Origin: Lachnospiraceae bacterium
GTDB lineage: Bacteria; Bacillota; Clostridia; Lachnospirales; Lachnospiraceae
Reading direction: 5' to 3'
NCBI GenBank assembly: GCA_024698885.1
Contig: JAILQQ010000039.1
Span: forward strand, 1 to 63,486
DNA: 63,486 bases
The translations under genes were made by a program, and so were the position numbers. Below the pieces are notes generated by a model that was not told the DNA's origin, searched no databases, and worked only from the letters and a program-made list of their open reading frames with translations. How positions within the stretch are numbered: the stretch's first letter is position 1; each line of letters opens with the position of its first letter. This document shows positions 6,072 through 40,822 of this stretch, in pieces.

Positions 6072-7076
6072 ATGATGTCTGATAAAAATAGGCGTATCAT
6101 CGCTTTTTTGCTTTTAATGGTTCTGACTGTCCTGCTGTTTCCCTGTAAAGGATATGCGCAGGATATCAAATCCGCGCCTTTCCAGATCGATTTCATAGAT
6201 GTCGGACAGGGCGATGCGGCCCTTGTAAAGTGCGACGGGCATTATATGCTGATCGACGGCGGAAGCGCGTCCAAATCCAGCCTGATTTATTCGTATCTTA
6301 AGGCCCGTTCGATCAGATACATCGATGTCATAATAGCCACCCATGAGCATGAGGATCATGTTGGCGGCCTTCCCGGAGCACTGAATTACGCCAATGTGGG
6401 AGCTGCGTTCTGCTCAGTCACAGACAGCGATTCAAAAGCTTTCCGGAATTCTAAGAAATATCTTGCGGCTCAGGGCAAATCAATATATGTCCCGAAAGCG
6501 GGAGACTCCTTTTATCTGGGATCTGCCCTTGTAACAATTCTCGCACCTGTCGTTGCCGGAACCGGACCGAACAATAATTCCATTGTCCTGAAAATAGCAT
6601 ATGGGGGTGTCTCTTTTCTGTTTGCGGGAGATGCGGAATGGGAGGAAGAAAACTCAATCGCCGGATACGGGGAGCTGTTGAGATCCACTGTCCTGAAGGT
6701 GGGACATCACGGAGGCGGTTCCTCGACGGGATATCAGTTCTTAAAGGCGGTTGCTCCGAGGTATGCCGTTATCTCCGTAGGCGCGGGCAATTCTTACGGC
6801 CATCCGGATGAAAATACGTTGAGCAGATTGCGGGACGCAGGCACGCAGGTTCTGAGAACAGATCTTCAGGGTGATATTGTCTGCACAACGGATGGGAATA
6901 ACATCACTTTCAACGTTCAACGGAACGCAAATATCAACACATTGGCAAATGCCGGACCGGGACAGAACCAGAACAAATCCTATCTTGTTCCGTTCGGAAA
7001 TTCTGCCCAGAATAATCAGGCAAGCGTACCGGACAGATCTGTTTCCGATACGAGGGATAACCAGGTAACCCGGTAA
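6072..7076 (+). CDS. Exported ComEC-like metallo-beta-lactamase hydrolase (copy 1)
   Basis: This 334-residue protein has a signal peptide (hydrophobic core about residues 8-25, ending near KGYAQD), so it should be secreted. The mature part matches the metallo-beta-lactamase domain of the competence protein ComEC/Rec2. It has FIDVGQGDA, the ID-GG turn, the zinc motif THEHEDHVGG, a FLFAGDAE segment, and KVGHHGG. It lacks ComEC's membrane channel, so it is a stand-alone extracellular hydrolase, possibly a nuclease or phosphodiesterase. The start has GGAGGAA upstream. The gene at 8068 is a close paralogue, nearly identical over the signal peptide and the first 75 residues. Copy 1 stops short of the cysteine-containing tail present in copy 2. 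Confidence 0.85.
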   Translation: MMSDKNRRIIAFLLLMVLTVLLFPCKGYAQDIKSAPFQIDFIDVGQGDAALVKCDGHYMLIDGGSASKSSLIYSYLKARSIRYIDVIIATHEHEDHVGGLPGALNYANVGAAFCSVTDSDSKAFRNSKKYLAAQGKSIYVPKAGDSFYLGSALVTILAPVVAGTGPNNNSIVLKIAYGGVSFLFAGDAEWEEENSIAGYGELLRSTVLKVGHHGGGSSTGYQFLKAVAPRYAVISVGAGNSYGHPDENTLSRLRDAGTQVLRTDLQGDIVCTTDGNNITFNVQRNANINTLANAGPGQNQNKSYLVPFGNSAQNNQASVPDRSVSDTRDNQVTR

Positions 7077-8067: not shown

Positions 8068-9228
8068 ATGATGTTTAATAAAAATCAGCGTATTATCGCT
8101 TTTTTGCTTTTAATTGTTCTGACTGTCCTGTTGTTCCCGCATAAAGGATATGCGCAGGATATTAAGTCCGCGCCTTTTCAGATCGATTTCATAGATGTCG
8201 GACAGGGCGATGCCGCCCTTGTAAAGTGCGATGGGCATTATATGCTCATAGATGGCGGAAGCGCGTCAAAATCCAGTCTTATTTATTCGTATCTTAAATC
8301 CCGTTCTATCAAGAATATAGATGTTATGGTCGCCACACATCCGGACGAAGATCATATAGGAGGGTTGTCTGGCGCATTGAATTATGCGAATGTCGGGCTG
8401 GCTTTATGTCCGGTCACACAGCACAGCACGAAAACATTCCAAAGTTTTGTAAAATATCTGGGAGCACAGGGAAGAACCATTACTGTACCGAAAGCAGGAC
8501 AGTACTTTATGCTGGGATCTGCTGTTGTTTATATCTTGGGGCCGACCTATATCAGCGATGAAGCAAATAATAATTCCATTGTTTTGCGGATAGTTTATGG
8601 AAAAGCCTCTTTTCTGTTTACCGGCGATGCGGAAACGGAAGAGGAGAATGCGATCTTAAATTCCGGGCAGGCGGTTCAGAGCACGGTCTTAAAAGTCGCC
8701 CATCACGGAAGCGATTCATCGACAGGATACCAGTTCTTGAGGGCGGTTGCTCCGAAGTATGCCGTTATCTCTGTAGGCTCAGAAAATTCTTATGGACATC
8801 CGACTGAAAACACGTTAAGCAGATTGAGGGATGCAGGTGCGCAGGTCCTTAGAACAGATCTTCAGGGTGATATTGTCTGCACGACGGACGGGAATTACAT
8901 TACCTTTTACGTCCAGCGCAATGCAAATATCAATACGTTGGCAAATGCCGGACCGGGACAAAATCAGGATTTATCTTATCTTACGCCGTCCGGTAATTCT
9001 GCTCCAGATAATCAGGCAGGAATCCCGGACAGATATGTCTCTGATGCCGGGAATAACCAGTCAGCACAGTCATATTCCTATGTTCTCAATACAAATTCGC
9101 ATAATTTTCACCGTCCGGAATGCAGCAGTGTGAACGATATGAAAGAGAAGAACAAGCAGTATTTCAACGGGTCGCGGGAAGAAGCGATCGCGCTGGGGTA
9201 TGAACCCTGCAAGCGATGCAATCCTTAA
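8068..9228 (+). CDS. Exported ComEC-like metallo-beta-lactamase hydrolase with cysteine tail (copy 2)
   Basis: This 386-residue secreted protein is a paralogue of the one at 6072, with the same signal peptide, FIDVGQGDA motif and fold. Its zinc motif reads THPDEDHIGG, and KVAHHGS follows. It has an extra C-terminal module of about 45 residues of the form NTNSHNFHRPECSS ... GYEPCKRCNP. Such His/Cys-rich tails resemble the Ada-type metal-binding module found at the ends of secreted nucleases in Firmicutes. That similarity supports, but does not prove, a role in degrading extracellular DNA. GGAGGGA precedes the ATG. Conservation also extends into the upstream region, consistent with tandem duplication. 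Confidence 0.85.
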   Translation: MMFNKNQRIIAFLLLIVLTVLLFPHKGYAQDIKSAPFQIDFIDVGQGDAALVKCDGHYMLIDGGSASKSSLIYSYLKSRSIKNIDVMVATHPDEDHIGGLSGALNYANVGLALCPVTQHSTKTFQSFVKYLGAQGRTITVPKAGQYFMLGSAVVYILGPTYISDEANNNSIVLRIVYGKASFLFTGDAETEEENAILNSGQAVQSTVLKVAHHGSDSSTGYQFLRAVAPKYAVISVGSENSYGHPTENTLSRLRDAGAQVLRTDLQGDIVCTTDGNYITFYVQRNANINTLANAGPGQNQDLSYLTPSGNSAPDNQAGIPDRYVSDAGNNQSAQSYSYVLNTNSHNFHRPECSSVNDMKEKNKQYFNGSREEAIALGYEPCKRCNP

Positions 9229-9877: not shown

Positions 9878-10486
9878 ATGAAAATGAAATCAGACGTGAT
9901 TACGGTTTCCAGTGATGGCGCACGCATGGAAGAAGCTTTAAATCAGGCAGCGAAGGTCGCGGATTATTCGGATTTATCGGGGAAAGATGCCCTTCATCTC
10001 CGTCTTCTCGGAGAGGAAATGCTGTGCGTTATGCGGGCGATCACAGGGGAGATGCAGGGAAAATTCTGGATCGAAAACGAGGATGGCCTATGCAGCCTTC
10101 ATCTTCTGGTGGAAACTCCGATCACTGCCGAGAAGAGAAAGCAGCTTTTATCCGTGTCGACCACCGGAAAAAATGAAGCTACAAAAAGCTTCATGGGACG
10201 GCTCAGAGAATTCTTTTTCAGCGGAGCCGATGAAGATATCGCTTCCTTCAGCAATCCGGTTCTTCTGGAGAAAGGAGCATCCTTTAACCAGCCGCCGGTT
10301 TTGGACTGGCAGTGGTCCATGCTTCGCTATCAGGAGGAGCTGAAACCGCTCGTGGAGAAAAAGGACGAGAATGCTCTGGTAGCCTAGGACGAGCTGGAAA
10401 AATCCATAGTCGCCAATGTGGCCGATGAAGTAAAGGTGAGTATCCGCGGCTGGGAAGTAGAGATGATCTTTGAGAAGAAAATGTAG
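9878..10486 (+). pseudogene. Conserved-looking protein interrupted by an in-frame UAG
   Basis: The reading frame gives 169 residues, meets TAG at 10385-10387, and continues in the same frame for 32 more codons to a second TAG at 10484. The continuation (DELEKSIVANVADEVKVSIR) looks like real protein, so the stop is probably a nonsense change, for instance from a tryptophan codon. Readthrough or amber recoding is the alternative. I do not firmly recognise the family. An early LRLLGEEML helix and a later STTGKNEATKSFMGRLREFF segment faintly recall GHKL-type ATPases such as anti-sigma kinases. That would fit the partner-switching genes at 19-22 kb, but this is weak. The ATG follows CCGGAGG. Confidence 0.55.
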
Positions 10487-10492
10487 TATAAT
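10487..10492 (+). promoter_or_regulatory. TATAAT box in front of the hairpin array
   Basis: A perfect TATAAT directly follows the second stop of the interrupted gene. The first hairpin of the array starts nine bases downstream, which is where transcription would begin. No good -35 box is visible at the standard spacing, so the promoter call is tentative. Confidence 0.4.
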
Positions 10493-10498
10493 ATTTCG

Positions 10499-10745
10499 TT
10501 GGATCCGTATGACGGATCCTGCAAAGAGAATGTGCGAAGGCACGTCTGCGGAGGGCGAAGCGGGGGCCGCAGCTTAGATCCACTTACGCGGATTTTTGTA
10601 CGGTTTGCAGACACCGGGTACCCGTTCAGTCCGGTCAACCATTCCATGGTTTCAAACCATTTCTCTTTGTCCGATCCGGCCAGTTCCCTGGCCGGATCAA
10701 TTCCTTTTTGCGGGGCAGAGAACCTGCCCCGCTGCTTATTTTTAA
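10499..10745 (+). ncRNA. Candidate structured non-coding RNA upstream of the reverse transcriptase
   Basis: This stretch has no plausible coding frame but a run of hairpins. They are: 8 bp (10501-10519, loop ATG); GTGC-GAAG-GCAC (10532-10543); CTGCGG/CCGCAG (10546-10572) enclosing GCGAAGC; a weak stem ending in T5 (10578-10597); alternative stems around 10602-10658, including ACCGG/CCGGT and AACCA/TGGTT; an 11-bp stem with TTCC loop (10673-10698); and a 9-bp GC-rich stem (10710-10732) followed by a T-rich run to 10745 that looks like a terminator. A further 11-bp hairpin, with one bulged T in its 3' arm, lies between this and the RT start (10747-10774). A TATAAT lies just upstream. Together this suggests a discrete RNA of about 245 bases. 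Expression is not shown. Confidence 0.5.
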
Positions 10746-10813
10746 CGCGTCAATCTGCAATACAGATTGTACGCATCATTTCCCAAAGCCACACGGCGGG
10801 CAGGAACGACGGT

Positions 10814-12016
10814 ATGAGCTCACTCCTTCAGGAATTAACCGATAAAGACCGCTGGGATGCTTTCCTGTGCGACAGGATCGCTTCGGGCCATCTGTCAGGA
10901 CGTGAGATTTCGGAGCTGTCCGCCTTTGTGGCGGAGGAGCGCTACCGTCCCATTGCGGAGGGGCTGGCCGCGGGGCGTTATACCTTCAGCATCCCCCGTC
11001 TTTCGCGGATCAGCAAGGGCGGCTCCGGGGAAAAGCGGATCATCTACCGCTTCGAAGAGGATGAGGTATGGATCCTCAAACACCTCGCATTCCTGCTGCA
11101 CAGCTACGACCATCTTTTCTCTGACGCCTGCTATTCCTTCCGCCGTGACAGAACCGTCCGGGACGCGGTAAAGACCATTCTTAGCCAGCCCGGGCTTCAT
11201 GAACTGTATTGCCTGAAGGCGGATATCCACGACTACTTCAATTCCATCCCGTCAGACCGGCTCTGCCGCAGGCTTTCCGCCTTTCTTTCCGATGATCCGG
11301 AACTGGTTGCCTTTCTGCGTAGCCTGCTTACGAAGGATCTGGCCCGGGATGAAAAAACGGGAGAGCTGCTCCATGGAAACAGAGGCGCCATGGCCGGAAC
11401 GCCTACCTCCCCCTTTCTGGCAAACCTTTATCTGCTGGATATGGACCGTTTGTTTACGGATGCGGGAATTACCTACCTGCGGTATGCGGACGATATCCTG
11501 CTGTTTGCCGGGAATGAATCGGAGGCGATAGAATATCGTGATCTGCTTTGCAAAACTGTCCAAAAAGAGGGACTCATTCTAAACGAAAAGAAATCCCGTC
11601 TGATCCCGCCTGGCGCGACATTAGAGTTTCTGGGATTCAAATATGAAAACGGCATTATCGATATTTCCGACCATACCGCGCAAAAGATCAAGGCAAAGAT
11701 CCGGCGTAAGGCACATTCCATTTACCGCTGGCGCCTGAAAAAACAGGCCACCTTCGAACAGGCTGCTTTTGTCCTGCTGCGCAGTATGAACGGAAAATTC
11801 TATGATGTGAGGGAGACCGGTGATTTTTCCTGGTCAAAATGGTTTTTCCCCATTATCAACACCTCTGCCTCCCTGAAGGAGATCGACGCGTATCTGCTCC
11901 AATATGTAAGATACCTTGATAAGGGACGCCACTACAAGGGAAACTACCGTATTTCCTATGACCGGATCAGGGAACTGGGCTTCCGCAGCCTGGTTCATGA
12001 ATACTACGGCGGATAG
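10814..12016 (+). CDS. Stand-alone reverse transcriptase of unassigned class
   Basis: This 400-residue protein is an RNA-directed DNA polymerase. The catalytic aspartates are present: D137 in KADIHDYFNSI, and D226/D227 in YADD (residues 224-227). Motif 4-5 reads GNRGAMAGTPTSPFLANLYL, and LEFLGFKYENG follows motif 7. The C-terminus is a helical thumb ending in LGFRSLVHEYY. It lacks a group II maturase/HNH region and I see no intron around it. It also lacks the retron NAxxH and VTG signatures and has no template/variable repeat pair nearby, so it is not a clear retron or diversity-generating RT. I chose the ATG at 10814 because upstream in-frame sequence falls in the hairpin array. The structured RNA candidate directly upstream is the likely substrate or regulator. 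Confidence 0.85.
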   Translation: MSSLLQELTDKDRWDAFLCDRIASGHLSGREISELSAFVAEERYRPIAEGLAAGRYTFSIPRLSRISKGGSGEKRIIYRFEEDEVWILKHLAFLLHSYDHLFSDACYSFRRDRTVRDAVKTILSQPGLHELYCLKADIHDYFNSIPSDRLCRRLSAFLSDDPELVAFLRSLLTKDLARDEKTGELLHGNRGAMAGTPTSPFLANLYLLDMDRLFTDAGITYLRYADDILLFAGNESEAIEYRDLLCKTVQKEGLILNEKKSRLIPPGATLEFLGFKYENGIIDISDHTAQKIKAKIRRKAHSIYRWRLKKQATFEQAAFVLLRSMNGKFYDVRETGDFSWSKWFFPIINTSASLKEIDAYLLQYVRYLDKGRHYKGNYRISYDRIRELGFRSLVHEYYGG

Positions 12017-12943: not shown

Positions 12944-13224
12944 CCCATAACCACCTTTCCATCATGATCCGTGCGCATTCTCGCAGAGCGCTACCATGAA
13001 CAGCATATTTATCTGACACTTACTATATTTATATGCACACAAGCGGGAAAAAAGCAATAGAGTTATCTGAATTTTTCGGCACCCACCCCATTAAATATAG
13101 ACATTAATCTGTTTTTTTGATAGGATATAAGGTGGTTTAGTGGGTTTTTGTTCCCTGACTGCATCATTTCCCCGGATAACAGGATGCTTTGCCTGATATC
13201 CACGGACAAAGGAGATGGCCTCAG

Positions 13225-14115
13225 ATGAGCAATCTTTACAGAAAATCAGCGCTCGATAAGCTTTCAAGCCCCGAGCAGGTCGATAAAATGATACAGATCA
13301 CCTCGCCGATGTTCTGGATCGCCGCCCTCGGAGGCGGACTGATCATAGTGACGGCCATCATCTGGTCTGTTACGGCAAGACTTCCGGTCATCGTCCATTC
13401 GGAAGGCATATTTACGGGGGCGGAGAGTATCGGGACCGTATATGCGGCAGAAGAGGGGATGGTTGATGAGATTTACATATCGGAGGGAGATACAGTTAAT
13501 AAGGGACAGGTGATCGCGAAATTAACCATGCCTGCTTTCGGACAGGATCCTAAAACGCGCGAGAAGGCATCCGCCGATGACATCCTATCCAGTCTTGACG
13601 GGTATGTCGTTGATGTGTCTGTCGCGGAAGGAAGCGTCACAGTCCCCGGTGCTCCGGTCTGCCGTGTATTGAAAAAACCGGGGGAAGAAAACGACACCGT
13701 GATATGCTATGTTCCTGTTTCAGAGGGACGCAGGATAGAGAAGGGCATGAAAGCGCAGGTATATCCTTCTACGGTGAACCGGCAGGAATACGGACACATC
13801 GCTGCCGTGGTTTCAAAGGTGGACGAATATGTCACTTCGCAGGAGGATATCAGAAATACCCTTGCGGACCAATCGCTTGTGGAGGTTTTTTCCGCCGCCG
13901 GCCCCGTCGTCTGCGTGGAATGTGAGTTTGAAAAGGATCCTTCCGCCGCAGGCGGATATAAATGGTCGAGTAAAAAAGGCGGATCGGTTACGCTCGATCC
14001 GGGAACACTGGTGACCGTTGATATTGTAACAGAGGAAAAAGAGCCGATCACAATGCTTATCCCGTTCTTGCGGGAAAAGATGTCCGGGACGGAGCGCGGA
14101 AGGATCGGCGGATGA
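13225..14115 (+). CDS. NHLM-type peptide exporter, HlyD-like membrane fusion protein
   Basis: This 296-residue protein is the periplasmic-adaptor-like subunit of a peptide secretion system. One N-terminal transmembrane helix lies at about residues 30-55 (WIAALGGGLIIVTAIIWSV). A biotinyl-lipoyl-like beta-hairpin follows (GMVDEIYISEGDTVNKGQVI), then a second half-motif (DGYVVDVSVAEGSVT), and a C-terminal beta domain. The ATG at 13225 is preferred over an upstream one because AAGGAG sits at proper distance. Its stop overlaps the next start (ATGA, 14112-14115), so it is the first gene of the exporter operon. The family is associated with nitrile-hydratase-leader or double-glycine peptides. Confidence 0.85.
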   Translation: MSNLYRKSALDKLSSPEQVDKMIQITSPMFWIAALGGGLIIVTAIIWSVTARLPVIVHSEGIFTGAESIGTVYAAEEGMVDEIYISEGDTVNKGQVIAKLTMPAFGQDPKTREKASADDILSSLDGYVVDVSVAEGSVTVPGAPVCRVLKKPGEENDTVICYVPVSEGRRIEKGMKAQVYPSTVNRQEYGHIAAVVSKVDEYVTSQEDIRNTLADQSLVEVFSAAGPVVCVECEFEKDPSAAGGYKWSSKKGGSVTLDPGTLVTVDIVTEEKEPITMLIPFLREKMSGTERGRIGG

Positions 14116-16259
14116 ACAGAAACTATGCCAAAACGCCCACTGTATTTCAGATGGAGACCACAGAATGCGGAGCGGCATCCCTTGCGATGATCATGGGCTA
14201 TTACGGAAGGACCGTGCCGCTTGAACAGATGCGGATAGAGACCGGCGTTTCAAGGGACGGATGCAGCGCGAAAAACCTGATCCTTGCCGCGCAGAAATTC
14301 GGGTTGGAAGCACATGGCTACCGAAAGGATCTGGAAGGTCTGCTTACGATGCCGGTACCTGCGATCATTCACTGGAATTTCAATCATTTTGTGGTATGGG
14401 AGGGCAGACGCGGAAAATACTGTTATATCAACGATCCGAATACCGGCAGACGGAGAATGACCGTTGAGGATCTGGATGTGTGCTTTACGGGGATCGTTCT
14501 GACCTTTAAGCCTGCCGGAGCCTTTGAAAAGACGAAAAACAAAAATACCCTGTTTTCCTTTGCGGCCAAACGGCTTACGGGCCAGTACCGTGCGCTGGCG
14601 GCGCTTGTTATCACGGGGCTGTTCCTCGTGATCCCGGGACTTCTGACCCCGGTTTTTACGCAGGTTTTCATTGACGATATTTTTCTTTCGGGAAACTTCG
14701 ACTGGCTGGGTACGCTGATCGCCGTGATGGCGGGAACGGTGCTGCTTCAGGCCTTTCTCACGTTCTATCGCGGCAGGCTCCTGTTACTGCTGCAGAGAAA
14801 GCTGACGCTTTTAAGCACCCACGGGATGCTCACGCATATGTTCCGGCTCCCGGCTAATTTTTTTGAGCAGCGTTACGCGGGGGATCTGTCCCAGCGCGTG
14901 ACGAATAACAAAAATGTCAGCGAATTTCTTACCGGCGATCTTGCGCAGACGGCGCTTAACTGTTTTACGGCTGTTTTTTACCTTATTCTGTTAATGCTTT
15001 ACTCCCCGCTTCTTACCCTGATCGGAGTGGTCTGCATTTTTGCGGAGCTTCTGCTCATGTATGTCATGTCGGGACGTATGAAGGAATACAGCCAGAAGAC
15101 GCAGCAGGAAACGGGCAAGCTGACGGGAAATCTGTTCTCGGGACTGTCCATTACATCAACCCTGAAGGCAGCCGGAACGGAGAATGCGTTTGTCGGCAGG
15201 CTTTTAGGCAATTATGCCGTTTGCATCACGCTGCAGGAGGAGATGGGAGCGAGACAGGAACTGATCAACGCGATCCCGGAGGTATTTGAGAAGCTTCTTA
15301 TGATCCTGTCCCTGACCGTGGGTGGCCTGCAGATCATCAAAGGGAATATGACAGCGGGTATGCTGATCGGCTATACGGGACTGTTGACGGCTTTTGTCAC
15401 ACCGATCAACGAGCTGACCGCGTTCCTGCAGCGCATCCAGACGGCGAAGGCCGATATGGCCCGCGTCGAGGATATCATGCGCTATCAGGAGGATGCCAGG
15501 TATGAGGTTGCCGATTACGCGGACGGGGCAGACGGAAAGCTCGACGGAAAGGTGGAACTGAAAAATGTATCTTTCGGATACAATCTTTTAGAGCCCCCTT
15601 TGGTGACGGATTTTTCCTTTATGCTTCCGGCAGGGAGCTCGATTGCGTTTGTCGGAGCCTCCGGGAGCGGGAAATCCACTGTGTCCAAGATCTGCTCGGG
15701 ACTGTATGCGCCCTGGAACGGGCAGGTACTGGTTGACGGTATCCCGATGAAAAAGATAAAGCCCGAGGTGATTGCCGCGAGCGTAGCGACTGTCAGCCAG
15801 AACATCACGCTGTTTTCCGGTACGGTAAGAGAGAATCTTACCCTTTGGAACCGTTATATAGATGACGATGATATGATACGGGCCGCCAAGGATGCCTGCA
15901 TTCACGACGATATCAACGCAAAGCCCGGCGCCTATGATTTTATGCTTACGGAAAACGGTACAAATCTTTCCGGCGGACAGAGACAAAGACTGGAGATCGC
16001 AAGAGCGCTCATCCTTTCGCCGTCTGTTCTGATCATGGATGAGGCGACCTCGGCGCTTGACCCGATCGTTGAAAAGCAGATCCTTGACAATATCAAAAGA
16101 AGGGGCTGTACCTGCATCATCGTGGCGCACCGCCTCTCGGCCATCCGGGACTGTGACGAGATCCTCGTAATGGACGGGGGGAAGATCATACAGCGGGGAA
16201 CGCATGAAGAGCTTGCCGGGGTTCCCGGTCATTATCAGAGATTGATCAGGAATATATAG
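14112..16259 (+). CDS. NHLM-type ABC exporter with C39 leader peptidase
   Basis: This 715-residue protein both cleaves leader peptides and exports the product. The N-terminal C39 peptidase has Gln13, catalytic Cys19 in QMETTECGAAS, His92 in NHFVVW and Asp108 in NDP, so the triad is complete. Six transmembrane helices span about residues 155-430. The ATPase has Walker A GASGSGKST, signature LSGGQRQR, Walker B VLIMDEATSALD and a switch His in IVAHRLS. C39 peptidases cut after GG at the end of a helical leader. Matching peptides occur at 22792 (minus), 27950 and 28338. It is translationally coupled to the adaptor gene. Confidence 0.93.
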   Translation: MNRNYAKTPTVFQMETTECGAASLAMIMGYYGRTVPLEQMRIETGVSRDGCSAKNLILAAQKFGLEAHGYRKDLEGLLTMPVPAIIHWNFNHFVVWEGRRGKYCYINDPNTGRRRMTVEDLDVCFTGIVLTFKPAGAFEKTKNKNTLFSFAAKRLTGQYRALAALVITGLFLVIPGLLTPVFTQVFIDDIFLSGNFDWLGTLIAVMAGTVLLQAFLTFYRGRLLLLLQRKLTLLSTHGMLTHMFRLPANFFEQRYAGDLSQRVTNNKNVSEFLTGDLAQTALNCFTAVFYLILLMLYSPLLTLIGVVCIFAELLLMYVMSGRMKEYSQKTQQETGKLTGNLFSGLSITSTLKAAGTENAFVGRLLGNYAVCITLQEEMGARQELINAIPEVFEKLLMILSLTVGGLQIIKGNMTAGMLIGYTGLLTAFVTPINELTAFLQRIQTAKADMARVEDIMRYQEDARYEVADYADGADGKLDGKVELKNVSFGYNLLEPPLVTDFSFMLPAGSSIAFVGASGSGKSTVSKICSGLYAPWNGQVLVDGIPMKKIKPEVIAASVATVSQNITLFSGTVRENLTLWNRYIDDDDMIRAAKDACIHDDINAKPGAYDFMLTENGTNLSGGQRQRLEIARALILSPSVLIMDEATSALDPIVEKQILDNIKRRGCTCIIVAHRLSAIRDCDEILVMDGGKIIQRGTHEELAGVPGHYQRLIRNI

Positions 16260-16269
16260 CATTGGCGCG

Positions 16270-18873
16270 ATGGAAACGGTAAATATCAAAGGCGGAGAGA
16301 TCATACATACGGAAGGAAACCGGACGGCCTACGAGGTCGTTTCGGGGGAGGTGCTTGCTTACATCGTCCCTGTGAAGGGCGGTGAGCCGGGCAGGAGACT
16401 GTATCTGGGCAGCTTTATGGCAGGCAGCCGCATTCCGGGCTTCCAGCATTCTTCCGACATATACGGCTGCTTTGAGATCGTGCTCGGGACAGTGGGGGAA
16501 GCGGAGCTTCTGGTGCTTCCCGGTCAGACGGACGACAGATTATTGTATGCCTTTGCCGCCCGCACAAGGCTTCCGATGCCCGGAAAAAAGAGCCCGGATA
16601 CGGGCGAAACCGGAAAGCTCAGTGAAAACGTATACGAGCAGTTTGAGGAAGCGCTGATCGAAAAATACAATCGAAACGAGGTAAAGCAGGACGGCTATAT
16701 ATATGCCGCGATCCGGGAGAAGGAATATACCAGGGAGCAGACACTGCGCACTGTTTTAAACGCTTTTTCCAGACATGGGGTCTATAAAGGATTTCAGATC
16801 CGGGAAACGGGAAATGCCCTGTATGACGCGGTGGCGGTTTTATGCCAGGCAGAAAAGATAGACCTATCCCCCCTTGAAAAGATCGAGGAGAGTAACGGCC
16901 GCCGGTTCGATATCCATGACATGGCAAGGGTATCCCGTTTTGCGGTCCGGCAAGTGGCACTGGAGGAACGGTGGTTTCGGCATGACTGCGGCAGCTTCTT
17001 AGCGTTTGCCGGGGACAGGAAGCATCCGGTGGCTCTCCTGCCAAAGGGGCCAAGCAGGTATGTCCTGTTTGATCCGAAAAGAGGAACATATGAAAAGGTT
17101 ACGAGGGAGATGGCGGAAACGCTGATGCCGACGGCATACATGCTGTACCGTCCCTTTCCCGACAGAGCCATATCGGCAGGAGATCTGGTATCCTTTGGCC
17201 TGCAGAAGGTTTATTCCTCCGATATCGTCCGTCTGGTTATGATGTCGGTTTTCGGGGTTCTGATCGGGATGCTGATTCCCTATATCAACGAGCAGGCGTA
17301 TGACAGATTTATCCCCTTAGGCGATGCCCCGGGCTTTATCCGTCTGAGCGGCCTTCTTTTAGCGTGCGCCCTGGGCGGTCTTTCCTTTTCGATCGTAAAG
17401 AATCTGTCGGTTTTCAGGTCGTTAAACACGATGAAGTACGCGGTACAGTCCGCGGTCTTTGACAGGCTGTTCAAGCTTCCGGAGAGCTTTTACCGGGAGT
17501 ATGACGCGGCGATGCTCGGGATCAGAGCTATGGAGGTGACGAACATTTTTTCCGTCCTGGCTTCGGGCCTTGTCAATACCGCCCTGTCGGTTTTGTTCTC
17601 TCTTTTATATCTGTTTCAGATGTTTTCCTACGCGGCGGATATGGCGCTTTCCGCGCTTATCCTGATGGCGGGCGTCATAGCCATAGTCAGCTGGATCGGC
17701 TTAATGCACAGAAAGGTCTTAAGGACCATGCCGGTGGAAATGGGAGAGGAAGATTCCGCCATGTTCCAGTTTGTTAAGGGGATCTCAAAACTCCGGATGG
17801 CCGGGGCAGAGGACCGGGCCCTTGACCGATACATGGATAAGCTTGTGAGGAGCACTCAGTTTTCGGGAGCGGGGAAAAAACTACACAATGTCATCAAGGC
17901 TCTGACAGCCGGCCTTCCGACGGTGTTTTCCATGGTCTTTTACTGGCTGGCGGGCCGTCATAACACCGGGCTGTCAATCGGCGCGTTTTCGGCCTTCTGC
18001 GCATCGTTTGGCGCTTTTTCCGCCGCTGCTTTTACGCTGTTGGAAAGCTGTCTTGATCTTAACGAGATCAGGATTTCCTATGGATATGCAAGGCCCATCC
18101 TGGAAACACTGCCGGAGATATCCGATGATGTCGGGATGCCGGAAGAGCTGACAGGGGAGATTGAGATCAGCAGCATTACCTTCGCGTACGATAAGACGCA
18201 GGAACCTGTGCTGAAGGATCTGAGCCTTCATGTAAAGCCGGGCGAGTATGTCGGGATCGTCGGTCCCTCGGGCTGCGGCAAGTCAACGCTCCTAAAGCTG
18301 CTGCTTGGCTTTGAGAAGCCTCAGATAGGCCGGATCTATTATGACAATCAGGAGCTGGACGGACTCGACAAACGGGAGCTGAGAAAAAAACTCGGGGTCG
18401 TATTACAGGACGGCGGACTGATCTCGGGCAGTATTTATGAGAACATTACGATCACGTCGCCCGGTGTTAAGAAAGAGCGGGTGGAAGAGACTGTACGGGA
18501 TGTCGGCCTCGAGGAGGACATCCGGAATATGCCCATGGGACTTCATACGATCGTATCAGAGGAAGCGGAGACGATCTCCGGCGGCCAGAAGCAGCGGATC
18601 CTGATCGCGCGCGCGATGGCCGCAAGGCCTAAGATCATCTTCCTTGATGAGGCGACAAGTGCCCTGGATAACGCAGCCCAGGCGCAGGTTGTAGAGACAC
18701 TGGAAAGACTTCAGGCTACGAAGGTTGTGATCGCCCACCGCCTGTCAACCGTTGTAAACTGTGACCGTATTATCGTGATGGATCACGGCTCCATAAAAGA
18801 GGAGGGGACTTATAAAGAGCTTATGGCAAGAAAGGGGATGTTTTATGAACTTGCAATCCGACAGATCTCATAA
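16270..18873 (+). CDS. NHLM-type ABC exporter, second ATP-binding subunit
   Basis: This 867-residue protein is the partner ABC subunit usual in NHLM export loci. A long N-terminal cytoplasmic region (residues 1-300) lacks the C39 catalytic motif and starts with a cyclic-nucleotide-binding-like beta stretch. A six-helix membrane domain follows (about 310-600). The ATPase has Walker [10 protein letters not shown], signature ISGGQKQR, Walker B IIFLDEATSALD and IAHRLS. It probably forms a heterodimer with the preceding subunit or a second exporter. There is no strong Shine-Dalgarno sequence and the gap to the previous gene is 10 bases, so re-initiation is likely. Its 3' end overlaps the sigma factor gene by 29 bases. 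Confidence 0.9.
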   Translation: METVNIKGGEIIHTEGNRTAYEVVSGEVLAYIVPVKGGEPGRRLYLGSFMAGSRIPGFQHSSDIYGCFEIVLGTVGEAELLVLPGQTDDRLLYAFAARTRLPMPGKKSPDTGETGKLSENVYEQFEEALIEKYNRNEVKQDGYIYAAIREKEYTREQTLRTVLNAFSRHGVYKGFQIRETGNALYDAVAVLCQAEKIDLSPLEKIEESNGRRFDIHDMARVSRFAVRQVALEERWFRHDCGSFLAFAGDRKHPVALLPKGPSRYVLFDPKRGTYEKVTREMAETLMPTAYMLYRPFPDRAISAGDLVSFGLQKVYSSDIVRLVMMSVFGVLIGMLIPYINEQAYDRFIPLGDAPGFIRLSGLLLACALGGLSFSIVKNLSVFRSLNTMKYAVQSAVFDRLFKLPESFYREYDAAMLGIRAMEVTNIFSVLASGLVNTALSVLFSLLYLFQMFSYAADMALSALILMAGVIAIVSWIGLMHRKVLRTMPVEMGEEDSAMFQFVKGISKLRMAGAEDRALDRYMDKLVRSTQFSGAGKKLHNVIKALTAGLPTVFSMVFYWLAGRHNTGLSIGAFSAFCASFGAFSAAAFTLLESCLDLNEIRISYGYARPILETLPEISDDVGMPEELTGEIEISSITFAYDKTQEPVLKDLSLHVKPGEYVGIVGPSGCGKSTLLKLLLGFEKPQIGRIYYDNQELDGLDKRELRKKLGVVLQDGGLISGSIYENITITSPGVKKERVEETVRDVGLEEDIRNMPMGLHTIVSEEAETISGGQKQRILIARAMAARPKIIFLDEATSALDNAAQAQVVETLERLQATKVVIAHRLSTVVNCDRIIVMDHGSIKEEGTYKELMARKGMFYELAIRQIS

Positions 18874-19372
18874 CGGCTCACTGTCTTTTGAAGAGATATA
18901 TGAGCAGTATTATGAGAAGGTTTTCAACTTCGTGTATATGCGGCTTCTGCACAGAGAGGACGCGGAGGACGTTACGGAGGATACCTTTGTCAAGGCAATG
19001 GCGGCTTATGAAAGCTACAATCCGGAAAAGGCGTCTTATATGACATGGCTTTGCACGATCGCAAGGAACAGTATGATCGACCATATCCGAAAGGCTCACC
19101 GGGATAAGATCATACCGTTTGATGAAACCTTTGACAAAGGCGAGATGGATCATGAACTGGAGAGCCTTACAGACGATACGCAAAAAAGAGTCTTTGAGAT
19201 CTTTTCCCATCTCAGGCAGGAGGAGCGTGAGCTTCTTTCCCTGCGCTACGGCATGGAACTGGGATATCAGGACATAGCAAAACTCCTTGGGATAGAACCC
19301 AAGGCGGCGGCCAAGCGCGTCGAGAGGCTGCTCAAAAAATGCAGAGAAATTGGCGGAAATGATTCGGTCTGA
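18845..19372 (+). CDS. ECF-type RNA polymerase sigma factor
   Basis: This 175-residue protein has sigma region 2 (YEQYYEKVFNFVYMRLLHREDAEDVTEDTF, quoted here only for its landmarks DAEDVTEDTF and TWLCTIARN) and region 4 (LRQEERELLSLRYGMELGYQDIAKLLGI). It should direct RNA polymerase to a dedicated promoter set. Its gene overlaps the exporter gene by 29 bases, so it is co-expressed. There is no classical transmembrane anti-sigma factor next to it; instead STAS, SpoIIE and STAS-kinase genes follow, suggesting partner-switching control. The last codons (GGAAATGATTCGGTCTGA, giving GNDSV-stop) lie inside the palindromic element at 19355, which is unusual. Confidence 0.88.
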   Translation: MNLQSDRSHNGSLSFEEIYEQYYEKVFNFVYMRLLHREDAEDVTEDTFVKAMAAYESYNPEKASYMTWLCTIARNSMIDHIRKAHRDKIIPFDETFDKGEMDHELESLTDDTQKRVFEIFSHLRQEERELLSLRYGMELGYQDIAKLLGIEPKAAAKRVERLLKKCREIGGNDSV

Positions 19373-40479: not shown

Positions 40480-40822
40480 TTGAAAAGTCTGCAGGTGTCT
40501 CTGCCAGGCAGATTCAGTCAGGTTCCCTGACTGGATTATTTCCATTATGGCCGGCAGAGGTGAAAAGGGAAGCAGGTGCGAATCCTGCACGAACTCGTCA
40601 CTGTAAGAGGGAGCAAATGCCATACGGAACTGTCACAAGTTATTTTGTGACAGTTCCGTAGCCACTGGGCAACCGGGAAGGCGGCATAACTAGGAAATGA
40701 CCCGATCCAAAAAGCGGATCGGATCGGCGCACGGTTCACAAACGAACCGGCGCAGTGCGGAGAACTCAAGTCAGGAGACCTGCCTGTGGACAGTACGGGG
40801 ACAACCGTCCCGGGCCACGAGT
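40480..40822 (+). promoter_or_regulatory. Cobalamin (adenosylcobalamin-type) riboswitch with enlarged peripheral arms
   Basis: The B12 aptamer is recognisable. It has a GGTG segment (40493), the core GAAAAGGGAAGCAGGTGCGAATCCTGC beginning at 40562, CACTGTAA, GCCACTG, CCGGGAAGG, and the B12 box AGTCAGGAGACCTGCCT (40769-40785), quoted in parts. A long P6-type stem (ACGGAACTGTCACAA with its complement) and an inserted palindromic element (40693-40756) enlarge it. A terminator at 40903-40933 follows, so high cobalamin should stop transcription of the CbiK-like gene. The 5' boundary is approximate. Confidence 0.88.
40693..40756 (+). repeat. Palindromic element, copy D, inside the riboswitch
   Basis: It begins GGAAATGACCCGATCC, with stem CCGATCC/GGATCGG, lacks the middle hairpin, and continues GCGCA-CGGTTC...GAACCG-GCGCAG. 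It lies between the GGGAAGGC segment and the B12 box, where natural cobalamin riboswitches have only a short variable region. Confidence 0.7.

Follow-up and report, generated by a model that had tools for sequence, protein, structure and literature searches.

DRT9 is the reverse transcriptase (RT) group UG28. In the available part of PMC12483538, DRT9 is described as priming DNA synthesis from tyrosines in its tail and as copying a U tract. UG17 is identified as DRT10 in the available part of PMC12632851, where that enzyme primes from a C-terminal Ser or Tyr and where the discussion links every UG enzyme characterised by experiment to phage defence. The DNA treated here, called the window, is a stretch of 63,486 nucleotides (nt) from a Lachnospiraceae bacterium (assembly GCA_024698885.1, contig JAILQQ010000039.1), with coordinates counted from its first letter. 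Here, in a gut-type bacterium, an RT of the group UG26 and a folded non-coding RNA (ncRNA) directly upstream of its gene form a small chromosomal unit.

The original prediction for this locus was an undescribed unit of an RT and an ncRNA. The unit is indeed conserved. Its parts, of course, already have names: the RT is the UG26 of PADLOC, and the RNA is the RT-5 of Rfam. These were catalogued separately; with both parts named, the unit is not categorically new. What emerges is that an orphan RNA family and an orphan RT group are the halves of one tightly co-occurring unit, usually with a third component. In the open-licence literature, no work on the function of UG26 or RT-5 was found. Nor did that literature, a partial sample, yield the three-part unit, the full architecture of the RNA, or the clade that lacks the third component. 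Given this partial coverage, an earlier notice of a link between UG26 and RT-5, or between UG26 and COG2852, is possible.

An RT and an RNA that occur together

The case for the unit begins with co-occurrence. UG26 RTs were found in 24 of 200 genomes from the window's family (E of 1e-40 or better). The Rfam family RF03026 (RT-5) was found in 22 of these 24, in 21 of them over the cut-off, versus none of 16 genomes without UG26. A covariance model called R1, built from 43 seed RNAs, matched in the same 22 genomes, without a match in the remaining 176. The comparison was then widened to 105 UG26 loci besides the window, 25 from the family genomes and 80 from the genome_contigs collection (the best 80 of at least 409). 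R1 matched 97 of 100 sources, window included, and 5 of 6 leftover UG26 loci, giving 101 of the 105, a count in which each of the 43 seed RNAs matches by construction and two pairs of loci (L009 and L079, L023 and L080) have identical RTs. The four misses are two loci at contig edges (L005, L089) and two with diverged RTs (L025, L026). By conservation and co-occurrence, it is as good as certain that this RT and this RNA belong together.

The gene for the RT is placed as follows.

10814-12016, + strand: UG26 RT, 400 amino acids, start codon ATG at 10814, YADD motif (PADLOC, Pfam)

The frame called mechanically begins at a TTG at 10499; the ATG at 10814 was taken as the gene start. The PADLOC profile RT_UG26 (PDLC03764) matches residues 3-398 of 400 with 491.6 bits (E 3.6e-148), and no difference from that group was found. 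A generic RT profile comes next at 127.3 bits, followed by UG27, Drt9 and UG17 at 102-111 bits; UG27, the next specific UG profile, reaches 110.9 bits. A search for UG27 in 249 genomes gave no match, and its control was silent too.

Placing this RT among known groups, as had been called for, thus puts it by profile in one that already exists, while leaving intact the pairing of an RT with its own RNA. Two other parts of the original prediction have fared well, namely an intact active site (YADD is in place) and the lack of a group II maturase. RVT_1 is the only Pfam domain in the protein, the group II maturase model TIGR04416 scores 112.9 bits where its cut-off is 300, and the Rfam scan holds no group II RNA. 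Scored with the NCBIfam models for retrons, group II introns and Drt systems, the RT stays below every cut-off, including that of the retron model NF038233 (St85; 67.7 bits, cut-off 235) and that of the Drt2 model (45.1 bits, cut-off 390).

A fold search against the PDB put the DRT9 entries 9vma and 9nlv at ranks 7 and 9, and the DRT2 entry 9c0i at rank 48. From the profile ranking and the fold matches, the UG26 RT is best taken as a class-2 UG enzyme. An ncRNA encoded in cis beside the RT, a trait of the class-2 UG/DRT systems, is present in the window.

Architecture of the RT-5 RNA

The RNA is larger than the family model that detects it. Its parts in the window are these, with pairing given as the percentage of cells paired in A3, an alignment of 97 RNAs to R1.

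10521-10670, + strand: full ncRNA of the RT-5 family, about 150 nt (R1 match 10520-10672, 81.8 bits)
10540-10664, + strand: match to Rfam RF03026, RT-5 (48.7 bits, gathering score 45.7)
10521-10530/10661-10670, + strand: closing helix P1, 10 base pairs (bp), from alignments and fold; 93.2% paired
10532-10543, + strand: hairpin P2 (GUGC/GCAC); 90.1% paired, two-sided changes in 5 of 5 pairs
10544-10549, + strand: pseudoknot strand 1 (GUCUGC); 99.5% paired, two-sided changes in 6 of 6 pairs
10607-10612, + strand: pseudoknot strand 2 (GCAGAC), in the P5 loop, from A3
10553-10556/10629-10632, + strand: helix P3; 97.2% paired
from 10560/to 10625, + strand: helix P4; 96.0% paired
10601-10604/10613-10616, + strand: helix P5; 95.9% paired
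10568-10600, + strand: variable P4-P5 loop, enclosed by P3 and P4
10637-10651, + strand: hairpin P6 (AACCAU-UCC-AUGGUU); 88 of the 97 RNAs have a stem of at least 5 pairs here, versus 28% when shuffled
10652-10660, + strand: J6/1 (UCAAACCAU), single strand from P6 to the 3' strand of P1; candidate template

RF03026 is the sole Rfam match in the region before the RT gene. Its model has P3, P4, P5, P6 and a conserved UUGCAGGC loop in common with the window's RNA. The window's RNA is longer, with P1 and P2 outside the model, a pseudoknot that the model does not draw, and a P4-P5 loop of 33 nt with a hairpin of its own; that loop has a median of 9 nt over 90 RNAs.

The expectation that homologues would share a covarying structure upstream of the RT has been borne out. 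Judged by shuffles and by slid controls, 34 of the 37 pairs in A3 show two-sided changes, and 95.2% of 3535 cells are paired, versus 75.3% when shuffled. Cells with two-sided changes number 844, versus 241.8 in shuffles, and none of 500 shuffles came as high on any of five measures. Sliding the partner strands drops the pairing to 44-49%. Being fitted to R1, A3 is biased towards R1 in its nested helices; the pseudoknot, at 99.5%, is not part of that model. The seeds of R1 were picked by a script that scored pseudoknot complementarity, so that an earlier figure of 100% for the pseudoknot was biased, and most of the 43 seeds sit among the 97 RNAs of A3. RNAalifold, run on the alignment of the 43 seeds alone (A2), gave 17 pairs, in P2, P3 and P4, without recovering P1 or P5; A2 has P1 out of register. 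The minimum-energy fold of the window's own RNA displays P1 to P6.

Around this RNA lie further signals.

10487-10492, + strand: TATAAT, a possible -10 box; no -35 box fits
10501-10519, + strand: leader hairpin, 8 bp with a 3-nt loop (GGATCCGT/ACGGATCC), outside the conserved RNA (fold, inverted-repeat search)
10673-10698, + strand: terminator-like hairpin 1, 3' of the ncRNA, 11 bp (GATCCGGCCAG-TTCC-CTGGCCGGATC)
10710-10732, + strand: terminator-like hairpin 2, 9 bp (GCGGGGCAG/CTGCCCCGC), then a T-rich tail
10751-10769, + strand: small hairpin before the RT gene (CAATCTG/CAGATTG; inverted-repeat search)

The stems that had been noticed between a stop codon and the RT start are real; inverted-repeat search recovers those of 8, 11 and 9 bp. 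The supposed array comes down mainly to a single RNA at 10521-10670, multi-branched and pseudoknotted; beside it stand the leader hairpin, the two hairpins of terminator type and one small hairpin. The TATAAT is likewise present, with 8 bases, not nine, between it and the first stem. A sigma-70 scan before the RT gene found no two-hexamer promoter. A terminator scan found 2 terminator-like hairpins, versus 0.5 +- 0.9 in shuffles, and the 315 nt of 10499-10813 fold to -134 kcal/mol, versus -100.9 +- 5.4 in 100 shuffles (z -6.1, none as good).

The segments 10513-10530 and 10661-10678 form an 18-nt imperfect inverted repeat (83%) that contains the 10-bp closing helix. A strand of the leader hairpin together with P1 could pair with P1 and the first strand of terminator 1, and this alternative fold might serve as a switch.

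A third component in most relatives

When open reading frames (ORFs) from the 80 genome_contigs loci were clustered, one cluster spanned 52 loci, in most of which its member is the nearest upstream gene on the same strand; it includes a few unrelated elongation-factor-like proteins, linked through a fused frame. The proteins of this partner family mostly have 129-215 amino acids, with an MGLFDKLL-like start, then a linker that varies and a C-terminal domain that is conserved (alignment A4, 40 proteins). A profile made from 48 of these proteins matches 79 of the 105 UG26 loci, always upstream on the strand of the RT. Among the 26 loci without a partner, the upstream sequence is shorter than 700 nt in 7 and at least 984 nt long in 19. 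Within the 200 family genomes, the partner occurs in 14, all positive for both UG26 and the RNA, and each of its 16 copies sits no more than 150 nt upstream of the RNA.

The same profile, having matched those 14 relatives, finds nothing in the window or in its genome. In an RT tree, the window groups with L018 and L017, all three partnerless, with a support of 99. This tree was made by a quick method with the Shimodaira-Hasegawa-like approximate likelihood ratio test (SH-aLRT) only, from 100 UG26 rows and 4 DRT9/DRT10 rows on long branches; L024, L025, L026, L070, L086 and L089 were left out beforehand. The partner label changes 11 times on it, at least 6 of them forced.

The PADLOC profile RTasCOG2852 weakly matches 17 of the 40 partner proteins (best 3.9e-6) and, outside the 40, that of L102 (2.2e-9). 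A structure model of one partner reaches about 97 in predicted local distance difference test (pLDDT) within its domain. Foldseek gave weak restriction-endonuclease-like matches for this model (EcoT38I, E 0.047; 3ijm, E 0.22), with many unrelated folds at similar E. From the model, the partner would be nuclease-fold-like at most. An active PD-(D/E)XK nuclease was rejected, as the Foldseek matches are weak and no catalytic D or E-x-K could be seen by eye in the strands.

In two partners (L102:811-1611 and L109:2827-3819), what looks by eye like a Cys-rich, zinc-ribbon-like N-terminus replaces the MGLFDKLL-like helix; these starts have sub-threshold Pfam matches only. In the window, the place before the RNA is taken by an ORF at 9878-10387 (169 amino acids, stop TAG at 10385-10387), whose frame then runs on until another stop shortly upstream of the RNA, at about 10486. 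Pfam, PADLOC and NCBIfam hold no match for it. As it has no relative among the UG26 loci, it was ruled out as a partner gene.

Proposed template, mechanism and role

DRT10 offers a close comparison. It and the UG26 unit have in common a compact class-2 RT, an ncRNA with a long closing helix, a partner gene that most relatives carry, and a candidate template 3' of a stable hairpin. The UG26 partner differs in belonging to another family, in lying upstream of the RNA in relatives, and in being missing from the window. No SLATT domain, the kind that marks the DRT10 partner, was found with Pfam in the window's upstream ORF, the protein of 8068-9228, the downstream gene, or 8 partner-family proteins. 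With DRT9 the unit shares an RT with an upstream ncRNA, tyrosines in the C-terminal tail, and, by eye, a terminator-like hairpin after the RNA; J6/1 differs from the DRT9 template in carrying UUYAA and no universal U tract. With RTasCOG2852 it shares the weak match to the partners of relatives, a component missing from the window's genome.

J6/1 is proposed as the template because the templates of DRT10 and DRT9 occupy, by eye, the same place. Between the last hairpin and P1, two DRT10 RNAs carry what by eye are A-B-A' repeats, TCAA-CGGTAC-TCAA in L135 and TAAC-TTATTG-TAAC in L136. The repeat of a third, L134, is the shorter TAA, and in the DRT9 RNA L137 this place is held by the U tract. In the window, TTTC-AAACCA-TTTC spans J6/1 and its borders. 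Over 90 RNAs, the consensus of J6/1 is UUYAA(A)G, with a conserved core UUYAA. As for a primer, the window's RT ends in a tail, LVHEYYGG, whose tyrosines, Y397 and Y398, are possible priming residues. A tyrosine follows the LV motif in 94 of the 96 UG26 RTs that could be scored (106 proteins in all, 10 being left unscored for want of a match to the tail pattern), and Y382 is invariant in 22 of 22 UG26 RTs.

The mechanism suggested by these likenesses would run as follows. The UG26 RT and its RNA of about 150 nt would form one ribonucleoprotein, the RNA being a discrete transcript that, from its anatomy, intrinsic terminators probably end. The RT would bind the pseudoknotted core and start DNA synthesis on its own C-terminal tyrosine, as in DRT9 and DRT10. 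J6/1, with the first bases of the P1 strand, would be copied repeatedly to give a repetitive, single-stranded complementary DNA (cDNA). In most relatives, this cDNA or the ribonucleoprotein would act with the small protein encoded just upstream, and in the window's genome the unit would operate without it. By analogy with the enzyme family, phage defence would be the most likely role. The reading as a whole, a class-2 DRT-like RT making protein-primed repetitive cDNA from J6/1 of an RT-5 RNA, likely for phage defence, is offered at middling confidence; it could as easily prove wrong as right.

Several findings weigh against it. The RNAs of DRT9 and DRT10 are not recognised by R1 (best 14.7 bits, E 0.44). 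In the fold search, the DRT9 entries are preceded by, or interspersed with, group II intron RTs and G2L4. The position of the tail tyrosine is not fixed, since at its two main sites the residue may be Y, F, W or H. A free chimera test on J6/1 was negative, giving 3.73 versus 3.68, with 1438 of 5000 permutations as high (89 RNAs). A test anchored on the core, from which L095 was dropped before counting, fades as redundancy is reduced (p 0.0039 with 89 RNAs, 0.047 with 49, 0.24 with 24). Nor are A-B-A' repeats enriched in the P4-P5 loop. A telomerase-like A-B-A' signature is therefore not established in UG26 RNAs; in DRT10, the repeats were seen by eye, in 3 RNAs. The genomic setting adds to this. 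Of 115 flanking proteins (out of 141 prepared, from genome_contigs loci, at most one gene per side), PADLOC recognises 2 at 1e-15, a raw count with no matched control. In viral_contigs, none of 15 pattern matches was confirmed as a UG26 relative. The RT matches 21 phage records, all below 60% identity, and at least 5000 plasmid records, likewise all below 60%; the matches listed are at 22-33%.

Two other templates were tried and rejected. The P4-P5 loop has longest repeats equal to those of shuffles (z -0.5 to 0.7; 79 of 90 non-redundant RNAs, loops of at most 15 nt). There, 4 of 36 position tests fell below 0.05 uncorrected (k=3 at end -3, 0.048, at end 5, 0.018, and at end 6, 0.010; k=4 at end 6, 0.037), which is what 36 tests can give, and they are not relied on. 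Synthesis of poly-dT from a conserved A tract, the mirror of DRT9, is unlikely, since some RNAs have AA only.

How, then, might the same RT and RNA be understood otherwise? Chance hairpins in a GC-rich spacer are exceedingly improbable; lone stems of 7-9 bp can occur at random, but the folding energy (z -6.1) and the covariation over 97 RNAs do not fit, and the homologues refute the idea. A cis-acting leader or attenuator that merely controls expression of the RT would gain from the terminators between RNA and RT, and from the ability of the leader strand to extend P1 against terminator 1. It is very unlikely all the same, as the conserved RNA, with its own closing helix and a covarying pseudoknot, includes neither the leader hairpin nor the terminators, and as this RNA was found in the 200 genomes only alongside the UG26 RT. 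Priming from RNA, by contrast, keeps the ribonucleoprotein and changes its product: a longer stretch would be copied from the 3' end or a branch of the ncRNA, once or by rolling circle, as in retrons and DRT2. A base-paired 3' end would lend itself to self-priming, the fold search brought up DRT2 (9c0i), and the PADLOC Drt2 profile matches 22 of 22 UG26 RTs. Yet the Drt2 and St85 scores given above are weaker than those of UG27, Drt9 and UG17, and the sole variable single-stranded loop of the core is short. This makes RNA priming unlikely.

A non-defence role for the same ribonucleoprotein, housekeeping or regulatory, for example the making of a DNA for signalling or structure, has a minor but appreciable chance. 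It would fit the few defence-like flanking proteins, the want of a confirmed viral_contigs relative, and the presence of the unit in metagenome-assembled genomes of several phyla (Bacillota, Bacteroidota, Actinomycetota, and one from Acidobacteriota) and in 24 of 200 family genomes. Against it stand the phage-defence record of characterised UG enzymes (the available part of PMC12632851), a presence as patchy as that of defence genes, and a flanking count without a matched control. The available part of PMC10504277 also reports UG26 RTs in cold-seep viruses, which weakens a strictly chromosomal view.

Going beyond the preferred reading of protein-primed copying from J6/1, the unit would be a further telomerase-like system. 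Here, a tyrosine-primed RT would copy UUUC-AAACCA(-UUUC) of the window's J6/1 into tandem single-stranded DNA of the TGGTTTGAAA type, in a chromosomal setting outside defence islands, usually upon or through a small nuclease-fold-like partner and partnerless in this clade. This is doubtful. If it were true, and repetitive DNA were made outside defence islands, bacterial telomerase-like chemistry would extend beyond phage defence. For experiment, the unit and its RNA architecture define exactly what to clone, and point to a few bases and residues that, when mutated, should abolish or alter the product.

Some observations remain on relatives and neighbours. A genome from the same genus as the window's (G193) holds a long open frame (L025:70-2700) that ends, on its C-terminal side, in a UG26-like RT with RYSDD; the front of the frame presumably is a radical-SAM protein, to judge by resemblance. 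The RT-5 RNA was found neither at that locus nor in that genome. In the DRT9 locus L137, the RT frame contains one in-frame TAA. Among the window's neighbours, 3 of 9 match PADLOC, namely two metallo-beta-lactamase proteins and one ABC exporter, and all three are judged generic. The metallo-beta-lactamase proteins (6072-7076 and 8068-9228) are very similar, with signal-like starts by eye, and are apparently a tandem duplication; the second terminates in an Ada-type zinc-binding domain. At 13189-19372 lie what we take to be a secretion-adaptor-like protein and then two successive ABC exporter-like proteins, which a sigma-factor-like gene follows. Further along, a cobalamin riboswitch (RF00174, 63.3 bits) is found at 40503-40801.

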